DNA of 29,004 bases, from IMG/VR virus record IMGVR_UViG_3300025309_000235, positions 1-29,004 of that record. One strand, written 5' to 3'. Shown here piece after piece: positions 260 through 29,004 of the stretch (positions are counted from its first letter, which is position 1; every line of letters starts with the position of its first letter). The position numbers were made by a program, and so were the translations under genes. Origin of the DNA: a virus. Below the pieces are notes generated by a model that saw only the letters and a list, made by a program, of their open reading frames with translations, did no database searches and was not told the origin of the DNA.

Positions 260-458
260 TACCCTTTTTACTCCAAATTACTTTAGTTTTAGCTTTTCTG
301 ATTTCATCAATAAAAATTAAATATGACATTGCTTCATCTTTTGTTTTGAATTTTTTTCTATAAATTTCAAGATTATTTGAGTTTTCTTTTAGAAATAAAG
401 CGTTTAAAATTTTTAAAATAATCTCGTCAACTTTAATCTGTTTAAGTGTTTCCTCCAT
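252..458 (-). CDS. hypothetical small helical protein
   Basis: A 68-residue basic, mostly helical protein of unknown function. It overlaps the end of the LuxR-type regulator gene upstream by 17 bases and the next gene by 8, a compact phage arrangement that supports both being real. The AGGG of TTAGGG about 7 bases before the ATG can serve as ribosome binding site; the closer GGGAG directly abuts the start codon. Codons for LKQIK contain an imperfect copy (433-444) of the leader motif described elsewhere, probably by chance. Confidence 0.6.
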   Translation of the reverse strand: MEETLKQIKVDEIILKILNALFLKENSNNLEIYRKKFKTKDEAMSYLIFIDEIRKAKTKVIWSKKGNE

Positions 459-675
459 CTCCCTGCCCTAATAAATTGTATTTATGCGTATAATCTACTA
501 ATTGCGCTCTGGGGTTGTTTTTTCTATCGACACCTAAAACTTTTTCGTACATATTGTTTACATGCGCTGATATTGTACTTTTCGATATAAACAAACGTTG
601 AGCTATTTCTAAGTTGGTTAATCCGGCGCATATAAGACCTAAAACTTGTTTTTCTCTAACAGTTATTTTTTTCAT
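442..675 (-). CDS. LuxR/GerE-type HTH transcriptional regulator (HTH only)
   Basis: A 77-residue DNA-binding protein consisting almost entirely of a GerE (LuxR C-terminal) helix-turn-helix. It opens TVREKQVLGLICAGLTNLEI and continues with ISKSTISAHVNNMYEKVLGV, the usual LuxR-type layout. There is no receiver or autoinducer domain. An AGGGGA Shine-Dalgarno sits just before the ATG. It lies downstream of a second GerE-type gene (685-1080) in the early operon. Proteins of this size bind palindromes as dimers, and I infer a role in timing later phage transcription; a lux-box-like palindrome precedes the late operon at 28720-28739. The family call is strong, the target is inference. Confidence 0.88.
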   Translation of the reverse strand: MKKITVREKQVLGLICAGLTNLEIAQRLFISKSTISAHVNNMYEKVLGVDRKNNPRAQLVDYTHKYNLLGQGDGGNT

Positions 676-684
676 AAATTCCCC

Positions 685-1080
685 TTAAATTTCTAATTTA
701 TTAAAGAAACTTTGCAAAATATCCCTAACTTCTAAAGGTGATAATTTCACGCAATCACTTATTTGGTAAAGATTAAGACCTATAGAAAATCTTTGTAAAA
801 CATCTTTTTCGATGTCTGTTAAATATTCTTTTAAAAAAATTCTTGGTTTTTCTGAAAGAATATTTTTATAGTGATTAACAATTAAACTTGCTCTATTGCT
901 TACATCAAGCTTAACGAATAGGTGATTAACGTGTGTTTTTACTGTAGTCGGGGATATAATAAGCTCTTTTGCTATTTCGTTATACTCAAATCCATTTACA
1001 AGCAATTCTTTAACTTTTAATTCTGTTGGAGTCAGCTTATTAATTAATAAATAATTTCTTTCTCTTGTCCTCATGACCAT
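685..1080 (-). CDS. LuxR/GerE-type regulator with an internal HTH repeat
   Basis: A 131-residue regulator. Residues 16-60 form a canonical GerE helix-turn-helix (LTPTELKVKELLVNG, then EIAKELIISPTTVKTHVNHL). Residues 87-131 align to it without gaps over 45 positions, with about 12 identities (LT..E..V, G, I, SP..V, F.KL), so the C terminus looks like a diverged second copy of the same fold. No sensory domain is present. The start overlaps the Cys-rich gene upstream by 10 bases; ATG codons at residues 1 and 3 are both possible. It probably acts with the adjacent regulator at 442-675. Confidence 0.85.
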   Translation of the reverse strand: MVMRTRERNYLLINKLTPTELKVKELLVNGFEYNEIAKELIISPTTVKTHVNHLFVKLDVSNRASLIVNHYKNILSEKPRIFLKEYLTDIEKDVLQRFSIGLNLYQISDCVKLSPLEVRDILQSFFNKLEI

Positions 1081-6243: not shown

Positions 6244-6294
6244 AATATCTCACATTTTCTCACCTTTGTCAACACTTTGTGAGAAATAAATATT
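6244..6294. promoter_or_regulatory. divergent early/repressor promoters with operator repeats
   Basis: On the minus strand TTGACA (6272-6267), a 17-base spacer and GATATT (6249-6244) form a good promoter for the early operon. On the plus strand TTGTCA (6266-6271) with an AT-rich -10 region (TAAATA/AATATT, 6287-6294) would serve the repressor gene. The two -35 boxes overlap on opposite strands. Operator half-sites TCTCAC (6248-6253), TTCTCAC (6257-6263) and the inverted GTGAGAA (6279-6285) lie across both promoters, so the repressor at 6312 or the RHH protein probably binds here. Confidence 0.65.
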
Positions 6295-6311: not shown

Positions 6312-6671
6312 ATGTATGGTAAAATTTTAAAAACAATCAGAAAGAATAAAGGTTTAACTCAGCAAAAAATTGCTGATATTTTGGATGTAACAAGATCAAA
6401 TATTTCTAAAATAGAAGCTGGCGAACATTCTCTTTCTGAAACAGATAGAAAAAAAATAGAAGCCGACTTAAAAATTAACTTTGATGATTATTCAATGGAT
6501 GAATATAATTTAAAACTTAAAGAAAATGCTGAAAAATTAAAAATTGCTCCTAAAGTATTAAATGAAATTTTATCAGTAGCTATAAAAGACCCAGAACTTT
6601 TAAGTTATGCTGTAAAAGCGATTAAAGGTGATAAAGAAGCCAGAGAAAGATTTATTAAATTAACGGAGTAA
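6312..6671 (+). CDS. XRE-family repressor (CI-like)
   Basis: A 119-residue DNA-binding protein with a classic Cro/CI helix-turn-helix in residues 1-60 (KTIRKNKGLTQQKIADILDV, TRSNISKIEAGEHSLS). The C-terminal half is helical and lacks the Ser/Lys peptidase of self-cleaving CI/LexA repressors, so induction would need another route (antirepressor or promoter competition). It is transcribed rightwards, away from the early operon, next to the TCTCAC operator repeats. It is probably the lysogeny repressor and shares a transcript with the two TRL-like genes that follow (4-base gap to the first). Confidence 0.85.
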   Translation: MYGKILKTIRKNKGLTQQKIADILDVTRSNISKIEAGEHSLSETDRKKIEADLKINFDDYSMDEYNLKLKENAEKLKIAPKVLNEILSVAIKDPELLSYAVKAIKGDKEARERFIKLTE

Positions 6672-26970: not shown

Positions 26971-27195
26971 TTATTGTTCCTTTGTTAGTTCATCAGGGTT
27001 GCTTGGCAGTTTTTTTAATACTTCAACAGCTTCAGGATGTAAATGATAAGCCCATTTATTCCCATTCACTAAAACATAACAATGGTCATCAACTATAAAA
27101 TGACTAAAACCATTATTAAAAGATGCAACTGCTGTATCTGTATAAGTTGAACCGTTTTCGCGTTCAATGGTTATTTCTTGTTTTTTAAATTCCAT
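26971..27195 (-). CDS. hypothetical protein
   Basis: A 74-residue, mostly beta protein of unknown function (EITIERENGSTYTDTAVASF, HFIVDDHCYVLVNGNKWAYH). GAGG lies before the ATG. It overlaps the preceding coat-mimic ORF by 25 bases. No membrane span or catalytic motif is seen. Confidence 0.55.
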   Translation of the reverse strand: MEFKKQEITIERENGSTYTDTAVASFNNGFSHFIVDDHCYVLVNGNKWAYHLHPEAVEVLKKLPSNPDELTKEQ

Positions 27196-27311
27196 GTTAA
27201 AACCTCATTATTTTTATTAGAAATATTGGAATCTGGCTTATATATAAATAAAAATTCTTTTAGCTTGTTTTTCCACGATTCTAAAATAAAATTGCTTAAA
27301 TCTTGTGTCAT
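27171..27311 (-). CDS. 46-residue ORF with coat-protein N-terminal sequence
   Basis: A short ORF whose first 17 residues (MTQDLSNFILESWKNKL) match the start of the major capsid protein at 20687 (MAQDLSNFISEVWSQKL) at 12 positions without gaps. The similarity is also visible at DNA level, then ends. The remainder is unrelated and runs 25 bases into the next gene. The ribosome binding site is weak. It may be a duplicated fragment of the coat gene, or a peptide that binds the scaffold or portal in place of the coat arm. Confidence 0.45.
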   Translation of the reverse strand: MTQDLSNFILESWKNKLKEFLFIYKPDSNISNKNNEVLTWNLKNKK

Positions 27312-27319
27312 TACAGAAC

Positions 27320-27604
27320 TTAACAATCTATAGCATTGGAAAACTCAGGCAAAGTTTTAATTTTGCTATAAGCATCTTGAACGATATTAGAATCAACTGA
27401 AAAAATAAAGTCATCACCGTTAAAATTAAAAAATCTTGATTCTATGGGTTGACAGCCTGTATCTCTTGCTTCTTTTGAATAATAACCGAACATTGTTACA
27501 CCGGATCCGCGCGTATGCCAATCAATATTTGTTTCCACTATTTTCCAATAACCTGCATCTGCTTGTATTCCATAAGGTGTATTAAATTCTTTTTGTAATG
27601 CCAT
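27320..27604 (-). CDS. hypothetical phage protein
   Basis: A 94-residue protein starting at ATG 27604 (MALQKEFNTPYGIQADAGYW) with GGAG 6 bases upstream; an in-frame GTG at 27616 would overlap the Shine-Dalgarno and is less likely. The pattern 'YGI.A.YWKIVETNIDW' occurs in small phage proteins of unknown role. It is mixed alpha/beta with no membrane span. It lies between the TerS-like gene and the coat-mimic ORF. Confidence 0.6.
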   Translation of the reverse strand: MALQKEFNTPYGIQADAGYWKIVETNIDWHTRGSGVTMFGYYSKEARDTGCQPIESRFFNFNGDDFIFSVDSNIVQDAYSKIKTLPEFSNAIDC

Positions 27605-27623
27605 TTTATTCTCCACAAATTAT

Positions 27624-28022
27624 TTATAAAAATTTCTTTTTATCTAAGTTACTGATAATTAACGGTTTTTTGATTTCTTCATCAGGGCTTTCAAAGTCGC
27701 TATTACTTAATACTCTTCTTTCTTCAGGTGTACATATAAGCTTATACAATGCTATTTGCACTGTAGGATTATTGCTGTCGTACCATTTAGCCCGTAATCC
27801 CTGTTTTCTGAAAACTTTAATGTCTTCAATTGTTTGTTTTATTTCAGGATTTTCATGAAGTTTATATTTATAAAAAGTTTGCCTTGAAAAAGGCAAGAAA
27901 CTAACAAGTTCAGTTATAAATAAAACGCTGAATTTCTTTGCAGTTTCAATACATTGGTCAACTAACTCGTCATATTCAGTTTTAACAACAATTTCTTGTA
28001 CTGGTTTATCTTCGTTTTGCAC
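27624..28022 (-). CDS. terminase small subunit-like DNA-binding protein
   Basis: A 132-residue protein with a helical DNA-binding region (FITELVSFLPFSRQTFYKYK) and the characteristic LRAKWYDSNNPTVQIALYKL stretch seen in TerS-like phage proteins, followed by EERRVLS. TerS recognises packaging sites and recruits TerL, which here lies about 2 kb downstream. The start is GTG at 28022, with AGG 9 bases upstream; no in-frame ATG is available nearby. Confidence 0.65.
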   Translation of the reverse strand: MQNEDKPVQEIVVKTEYDELVDQCIETAKKFSVLFITELVSFLPFSRQTFYKYKLHENPEIKQTIEDIKVFRKQGLRAKWYDSNNPTVQIALYKLICTPEERRVLSNSDFESPDEEIKKPLIISNLDKKKFL

Positions 28023-28070
28023 ATTTTAAAACCTGACTTTTAATACTTATATTCAAAATTTTGATTAATC

Positions 28071-28110
28071 AAATAAAAAGCTAATACTCTGAAATAATCT
28101 TTGTATTAGC
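28071..28110 (-). terminator. terminator between the zinc-ribbon gene and TerS-like gene
   Basis: A perfect GCTAATAC/GTATTAGC stem (28080-28087 with 28103-28110) is followed on the minus strand by TTTTTATTT. It lies 30 bases after the 28140-28568 stop. A possible promoter for the next genes follows (TTGATT, 15-base spacer, TATAAG, around 28050-28072). Confidence 0.75.
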
Positions 28111-28139
28111 AAAATAAAAAGGGAGGGTCTTTGAGGGTA

Positions 28140-28568
28140 TTAACATCCCACTTGTGTGGGTAAATTATTCATAAAATGTTTAAGACTTTTGTCTTCAAAT
28201 AATCCGAGTTTTAATGTTGATAAATTAGCAAAGCATTTTTGCTTTTGTCCGTAAACATTGCAATAAAGAAAAAATCTGCTGCTTTTACTTCCTTCAGTTG
28301 CTACTTTAGGAAGTTTTTTAAATTTGTCTATTGCATGTAATAAATATTTGTTTATTCTTGAGTCTTTAACCTTCCCATACTTAAGATACTTTCCTTCAAG
28401 GGTTAAAGCTCTTTTTTCTGCCTTCTTCCCCCCACAGCCTTTACATTTTTCAATTACAAGAATGAAAAAACGATATATTGATAAATCTTTTACTTCTGAA
28501 GGAATACGAACTTCGTAAACATCAGCATCTTGAACAGTTAAACATCTATTACACTCAATTTTTGACAA
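28140..28568 (-). CDS. zinc-ribbon protein, first gene of the late region
   Basis: A 142-residue protein with two CxxC pairs (CNRC at residues 5-8 and KCKGCGGKK near 41-49), suggesting a four-Cys zinc ribbon. The rest is basic (KKLPKVATEGSKSSRFFLYC). It starts at TTG 28568 with AAGGGGG 6 bases upstream. It is the first gene downstream of the putative late promoter but is followed by a strong terminator, so it may be made early in late expression or act on termination. Function unknown. Confidence 0.6.
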   Translation of the reverse strand: MSKIECNRCLTVQDADVYEVRIPSEVKDLSIYRFFILVIEKCKGCGGKKAEKRALTLEGKYLKYGKVKDSRINKYLLHAIDKFKKLPKVATEGSKSSRFFLYCNVYGQKQKCFANLSTLKLGLFEDKSLKHFMNNLPTQVGC

Positions 28569-28686
28569 TCCTATCCCCCTTCTTGTGAATGAAGCTCGCA
28601 GCGGAAGTTTTGAAACTCTGGCGTTAAAGTCTTTTCCTCACGCTTCATCTGGAAGTAGAATCCAGTCAATTAAATTAATGAAGCTA
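28569..28686 (-). promoter_or_regulatory. structured leader of the late operon
   Basis: From the inferred start near 28686 the minus-strand RNA can form a CTGGA/TCCAG hairpin (28661-28665 with 28649-28653) and a long stem ATGAAGC/GCTTCAT (28642-28648 with 28589-28595) enclosing smaller stems. No riboswitch family is recognised. Confidence 0.4.
28571..28648 (-). CDS. possible 25-residue leader peptide
   Basis: An ATG at 28648 opens a 25-residue frame (MKREEKTLTPEFQNFRCELH...) that ends 3 bases before the TTG start of the zinc-ribbon gene. No ribosome binding site is seen, so expression is doubtful; if translated it would cover the leader hairpins. Confidence 0.2.
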   Translation of the reverse strand: MKREEKTLTPEFQNFRCELHSQEGG

Positions 28687-28692
28687 TTTTTT

Positions 28693-28739
28693 ATTATAAT
28701 TGCCCAACTAACTAATTTTAACTGTATATATATACAGTT
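28693..28739 (-). promoter_or_regulatory. late promoter with lux-box/LexA-like palindrome
   Basis: A perfect -10 TATAAT lies on the minus strand at 28698-28693, with only a weak -35 (TTAAAA region). Immediately upstream is the perfect 20-base palindrome AACTGTATATATATACAGTT (28720-28739), whose centre is about 43.5 bases before the expected start. Its core CTGTA-N6-TACAG has lux-box spacing and equals the enterobacterial LexA core. A weak -35 with an adjacent palindrome at this distance suggests an activator site (class II), perhaps for the phage GerE proteins. Confidence 0.6.
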
Positions 28740-28752
28740 TTTTAAAAAAATC

Positions 28753-28771
28753 TTGTGACCGATTTGTGACC
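28753..28771. repeat. TTGTGACC direct repeats
   Basis: Two identical TTGTGACC copies (28753-28760 and 28764-28771) are spaced by 11 bases, one helical turn. They lie between the palindrome and the half tRNA. They could be integrase arm sites or an activator site. Confidence 0.5.
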
Positions 28772-28875
28772 AAAATTGTTATTTTTGATTAGTTTTAATT
28801 ATTTTTAGCAATTATCTAAAACATTGTCATTGTTAATAAAATTAGTAATTATTAAAAATAATTAAAAGCGTTTTA
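28772..28875. other. AT-rich stretch between direct repeats and half tRNA
   Basis: AT-rich sequence with no gene seen on either strand. It is the expected position of integration-host-factor or integrase sites, but I recognise no specific one. Confidence 0.3.
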
Positions 28876-28877
28876 TT

Positions 28878-28919
28878 ACCTTAGGAGGGTGACGTTCTAT
28901 CCTGCTGAACTACGTGGAC
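28878..28919 (-). tRNA. 5' half of tRNA-Arg(CCU), probable att junction
   Basis: On the minus strand from 28919 a tRNA 5' half is clear: acceptor GTCCACG, TA, D-arm GTTC/GAAC with loop AGCAGGATA, G26, anticodon stem TCACC and loop CTCCTAA with anticodon CCT (28885-28883), then GGT. After that the sequence departs from tRNA: the expected stem GGTGA reads GGTAA, and no T-arm or acceptor 3' strand follows in the next several hundred bases. tRNA-Arg(CCU) is a common integration target. This is best read as a prophage attachment-site junction; it could also be the attP of a free phage genome. Confidence 0.75.
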
Positions 28920-29004
28920 ACAAAGTTATATAATATATAATATTATAAAAATTCTATTAAAAAACTTAAAATTAATTATTGCCCAAAATTTTTCAAAATT
29001 TGGA
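28920..29004 (-). promoter_or_regulatory. upstream region of the tRNA-Arg, probably chromosomal
   Basis: AT-rich sequence with a minus-strand TATAAT-like -10 box in front of the tRNA 5' end. If the junction is right this is host DNA. No gene is seen. Confidence 0.35.

Follow-up and report, generated by a model that had tools for sequence, protein, structure and literature searches.

A candidate operator for small LuxR-type regulators in front of the late region in a Gastranaerophilales phage

In Q-type control of phage late genes, a small regulatory gene heads the late region, and a terminator-like element separates it from the late genes themselves. The virus sequence described here, a 29 kb record that we analyzed over its full 29,004 nucleotides (the window), presents a zinc-ribbon-like gene that we call Z, a terminator-like hairpin, and the late genes in that same order. 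Unlike the regulators of that type, however, Z matched no family in Pfam or PHROG, and a search of the PDB and viral structures with an AlphaFold model of moderate confidence (pLDDT 75) returned no fold match at E<0.001; a role of Z in antitermination would be hypothetical.

The locus also resembles the lux box with its LuxR class II activator. Lux boxes are palindromes of ~20 bp with CTGT half-sites, a description that fits AACTGTATATATATACAGTT, and they are centered near -42.5 of the transcription start. In the window this CTGTA-type palindrome lies by a weak -35 at about -43 of a predicted start, with GerE-domain proteins as candidate activators. These candidate binders differ from LuxR in being HTH-only, with neither an autoinducer nor a receiver domain, and the relatives of the window use entirely different half-sites. 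Phage-encoded LuxR-type receptors are known to bind host autoinducers (PMC6456758), and while both cases involve LuxR-type HTH genes on phages, the GerE proteins of the window have no sensor domain and are proposed to serve an internal early-to-late switch. The palindrome, whose core the initial annotation had recognized as that of the E. coli LexA consensus, also agrees with this consensus, CTG(TA)5CAG (PMC3091678), at 16 of 16 positions, but the box of the host order differs and no host regulon with the motif was seen. Against this background, the control proposed here would vary a known theme, and it points to a broader system.

The proposed operator and its promoter comprise the following features:
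28720..28739, no strand assigned: proposed operator, the perfect 20-bp palindrome AACTGTATATATATACAGTT, read directly from the sequence
28716..28721, minus strand: weak -35 hexamer TTAAAA, from a consensus scan only, sharing 2 bases with the end of the palindrome
28693..28698, minus strand: -10 hexamer TATAAT, from a consensus scan only, with the start predicted near 28686
28753..28771, plus strand: direct repeat TTGTGACC-N3-TTGTGACC with an 11-bp period, upstream of the palindrome

Direct reading and the promoter scan bear out the initial description of this site as a perfect 20-base palindrome with a CTGTA-N6-TACAG core, centered about 43.5 bases before the start predicted from a TATAAT -10 with a poor -35. 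On the minus strand the palindrome is followed by TTAAAA (28721-28716), 17 nt, and TATAAT (28698-28693), which is the top-scoring sigma-70-like site within 27000-29004, a stretch where 17 such sites were found versus 10.1 expected; if the start is taken 7 nt past the -10, the center of the palindrome falls at -43.5. No other zero-mismatch CTGTA-N6-TACAG occurs in the window, whose longest perfect palindrome it also is (20 bp, with a runner-up of 16 bp). Length alone is nevertheless weak evidence: when the whole window is simulated as Markov copies, 7-14% of them hold a perfect palindrome of 20 bp or more somewhere. Within the 309-nt region 28569-28877, the interval between Z and a tRNA fragment, one that long appears in 0.25% of Markov copies, and it is position, not length alone, that makes the palindrome notable. 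An Rfam search of the promoter region gave no match. TTGTGAC occurs three times in the window, two of these within the direct repeat, which could bind a second regulator or serve as an arm site for an integrase.

Downstream of this promoter, on the same strand, lie:
28140..28568, minus strand: gene Z, encoding a 142-aa zinc-ribbon-like protein, with a TTG start and a strong Shine-Dalgarno sequence; the first gene after the promoter
28070..28110, minus strand: terminator-like hairpin GCTAATAC-N15-GTATTAGC followed by TTTTTATTT, between Z and the terminase genes
27624..28022, minus strand: small-terminase-like gene with a weak match to DNA-packaging gp3, which begins the packaging and structural genes

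Late promoter is a name that we infer from the region: the first gene that the promoter reaches is no structural gene but the zinc-ribbon, regulator-like Z, and the terminase and structural genes lie beyond a terminator-like hairpin. The hairpin is present in both the minimum free energy and centroid structures (fold z -0.98 over 123 nt), the sequence after it is T-rich, and in relatives an intrinsic terminator also follows Z, usually a far stronger one (e.g. GGGCGGATTACCCGCCCTTTTTT). Because Z, the hairpin, and the terminase genes come in this order, the proposed operator is expected to act directly on Z only, and the late operon would be reached from it only by a cascade or by read-through, so a second step would be needed. 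Homologs of Z head the late region in the clusters of host relatives described below and in another phage with different structural genes (L257), where the Z homolog shares 37% identity.

The candidate binders are encoded in the early operon:
442..675, minus strand: GerE1, a 77-aa LuxR-type HTH protein without a sensor domain (PF00196, 5.8e-15)
685..1080, minus strand: GerE2, a 131-aa LuxR-type HTH protein (PF00196, 1.5e-18)

These Pfam matches confirm the two early, sensor-less GerE proteins of the initial annotation. A quorum-sensing-type LuxR receptor is excluded, as both proteins match HTH-type families only. GerE2 has a second, weak GerE-like HTH domain at aa 87-130, and we speculate that it could be a one-chain pseudo-dimer, in which one chain might fill both half-sites. 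The window has two GerE copies, and they do not adjoin Z but are found at the opposite end of the record, which speaks against their role at the Z promoter. The right end of the record carries a fragment that bears on the host:
28878..28920, minus strand: 5' half of a tRNA-Arg(CCU), 43/43 identical to a Candidatus Galligastranaerophilus tRNA

A 42-mer of this tRNA half is exact in 6 of 286 sampled Gastranaerophilales genomes, and the terminase relatives of the window are located in genomes of this order as well; from these relatives and the tRNA attachment half-site we take the host order to be Gastranaerophilales. Positions 28878-28920 read as a prophage attachment junction, past which (beyond 28920) host or attachment-site DNA would follow. 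No integrase was found in the window, and the record is therefore probably truncated on the left. The early operon leads leftward out of the record at this end and the Z promoter adjoins the right junction, so that on the excised circle the promoter would share one side with the GerE end of this operon. In the lysogen, a host tRNA promoter, if present rightward, would be directed at the Z promoter.

The TerL relatives that we annotated in full (in G002, G005, and G006) are not whole prophages. Each genome has a block of ~10 kb set between housekeeping genes (loci L083, L091, and L103, with upstream L182-L184) that encodes, naming genes from their sequences and by analogy, Z, GerE, an amidase, tail and coat proteins, a small terminase, an acetyltransferase (GNAT), the portal, TerL, and a holin-like protein; no integrase or replication genes were recognized in these three blocks. 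TerL is present in 179 of the 286 sampled Gastranaerophilales genomes, mostly as a single copy. Close pairs have dN/dS values of 0.01-0.05 in TerL and of 0.02-0.13 in the coat gene, with synonymous sites near saturation in several pairs. An iterated HMM located the small GerE gene at 46 sites, and GerE is the only HTH regulator recognized in these clusters. We consider the block a candidate gene transfer agent (GTA) of Gastranaerophilales, as yet undescribed; the open-access part of the literature yielded nothing on GTAs in Melainabacteria or on GerE late activators of phages. Viral contigs queried with the portal alone and with Z alone returned no relatives.

The lead promoter of the Z/GerE/late cluster in relatives carries palindromes of three classes:
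Class A operator: AATTACT-N2-AGTAATT, centered 37 nt before the -10
Class B operator: CCATG-N4-CATGG, centered 58-59 nt before the -10
Class C operator, distal: TACGTAA-N2-TTACGTA, centered 58-59 nt before the -10
Class C operator, proximal: CGTA-N8-TACG, centered 33 nt before the -10 (L090, L092, and L093)

The center of the window palindrome lies 31 nt before its -10, versus 33 nt for the proximal class C operator, and the operator-to--10 distance thus differs among classes (31, 33, 37, and 58-59 nt), which counts against a shared GerE mechanism. The recognition helix of the neighboring GerE gene also falls into three classes, and these pair with the operator classes: in 32 of 32 loci typable for both (10 A, 16 B, and 6 C), with both sets of classes defined after seeing the data, there is no mismatch. 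In a weakly resolved TerL tree, class A forms one clade and classes B and C are each split over two positions, so this agreement represents only a handful of independent changes. On these sequences, the operator and the GerE recognition helix seem to change together, through few independent changes. Ten class A clusters are without Z and have kept both operator and GerE, which makes GerE, not Z, the constant partner of the operator. There is one copy of the operator per cluster. Across the whole genomes of four class B carriers, one or two copies were counted in each, the two extra ones inside genes, and this distribution is consistent with a dedicated regulator rather than a host-wide regulon. 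An exact AACTGTATATATATACAGTT was found at the equivalent place in none of ~160 relatives, the closest of which has a TerL of 67% identity; exact 24-mer matches do exist in viral contigs.

The best explanation of the palindrome is that it may serve as the operator of a phage GerE (LuxR-type HTH) regulator at the Z promoter, a reading that we hold to be about evenly poised between right and wrong. The operators of relatives, the complete class agreement, and the one-off operator per cluster support GerE control, and to this extent they favor the original proposal that GerE may switch on the late operon; what changes is its immediate target, as the promoter belongs to Z and a hairpin follows. 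If induction leads the early operon to make GerE1 and GerE2, then a GerE dimer on the palindrome, just upstream of the poor -35, could recruit RNA polymerase in a class II-like activation. Z would then be made, and either Z or read-through of the terminator-like hairpin would open the way to the terminase and structural genes. The steps that we infer are binding, the sense of the control (activation and not repression), which of the two GerE proteins acts, and the role of Z. More tentatively, it is possible that a single circuit, consisting of a small sensor-less GerE and a co-evolving palindromic operator at the late region, runs particle genes both in Gastranaerophilales phages and in the GTA-like cluster that is widespread among their hosts and passed on vertically, with the window palindrome as the phage version.

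If this is how the locus works, a minimal GerE acting as a dedicated early-to-late switch would represent a distinct, non-sensing phage use of the LuxR-type fold, and operators and recognition helices that seemingly change together would be natural material for learning how LuxR-type proteins choose their DNA sites. This cassette also points to a cluster of particle genes resembling an undescribed GTA of gut Melainabacteria, and makes the regulation of this GTA-like cluster directly testable.

The initial annotation had named LexA as the rival, in which case host LexA would bind the palindrome, repress the promoter, and tie the late region to DNA damage. The agreement with the E. coli consensus speaks for this, and a LexA-like protein occurs in about one third of the sampled Gastranaerophilales genomes, including G010, which has an exact tRNA match, but in several genomes with such a match only the C-terminal LexA/UmuD part was seen. 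The boxes before lexA in this order have another form, TTAT(GT/AG/GA)AC-N4-GT..ATAA, built from a half TTATGTAC, TTATAGAC, or TTATGAAC, the spacer N4, and the mirrored half, apart from minor variation. The palindrome is without their AC-N4-GT core and scores -34 on a weight matrix built from 24 Gastranaerophilales boxes, versus 22-30 bits for the lexA boxes themselves. Under LexA control the same palindrome would also be expected in front of host SOS genes; the lexA boxes differ from it, CTGTA-N6-TACAG is at background level in ten host genomes, and 7 of 7 inspected copies are within coding sequence. LexA control is therefore disfavored and, as judged from these boxes, unlikely to a high degree unless the true host falls outside the box pattern of its order. 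Upstream of lexA in L229-L256, the half-sites are GTAC, AGAC, and GAAC, always as AC-N4-GT.

A repressor of the phage itself could instead bind here and silence Z in the lysogen, and the window offers one candidate:
6312..6671, plus strand: XRE-type repressor-like gene
6256-6286, upstream of the XRE gene: inverted repeat TTTCTCAC-N15-GTGAGAAA, unlike AACTGTATATATATACAGTT

A temperate phage needs silent late genes, and TTGTGA is common to the TTGTGACC repeats beside the palindrome and the inverted repeat of the XRE gene. However, that inverted repeat does not resemble CTGTA-N6-TACAG, a motif that is absent at the XRE gene, and relatives keep their operators in clusters with no recognized XRE gene inside, so we regard XRE repression as unlikely. 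Some other phage or host regulator, for example one encoded to the left of the probably truncated end, is a somewhat weaker candidate, given that GerE alone accompanies the operator in all typed relatives. The palindrome might also act on rightward transcripts as a hairpin or intrinsic terminator that shields the tRNA side against antisense transcription: its plus strand folds into a hairpin of 8 bp (-6.6 kcal/mol, z -2.9), with TTTTTT after it. Despite this U run, the stem has only 2 G-C pairs where an intrinsic terminator has a G+C-rich one, no upstream plus-strand gene is there to be ended, and T runs do not as a rule follow the operators of relatives, which leaves this reading improbable. 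The same low probability attaches to a chance AT-rich palindrome with no function; a GC content of 32% and the whole-window Markov frequency would accommodate it, but the frequency in the 309-nt promoter region and the palindromes at the equivalent promoter positions of relatives argue against it.

Between the promoter and Z, 24 GTA-like clusters carry a common leader RNA made up of three short helices (alignment A2, with L103:1327-1394 and 23 others; consensus GUGGUUAAGGUUCACGCCC..GAUGGCAAAAUCGUUUACCAC), with compensatory changes in 7 of 11 pairs. A covariance model matched two more clusters, and the RNA is absent from the leader of the window, where the best match (14.9 bits) lies elsewhere. 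A scan of two carrier loci against Rfam gave no match, and on the basis of these two loci the covarying leader appears to be an undescribed RNA. Just past the Z terminator and upstream of GerE, a further sequence, GGAAATATTATTAA, is conserved (L121:1834-1970 and other Z-GerE gaps); it is kept in operator classes B and C alike, is followed ~22 nt later by a -10-like TAATAT, and is possibly the site of a second conserved regulator.
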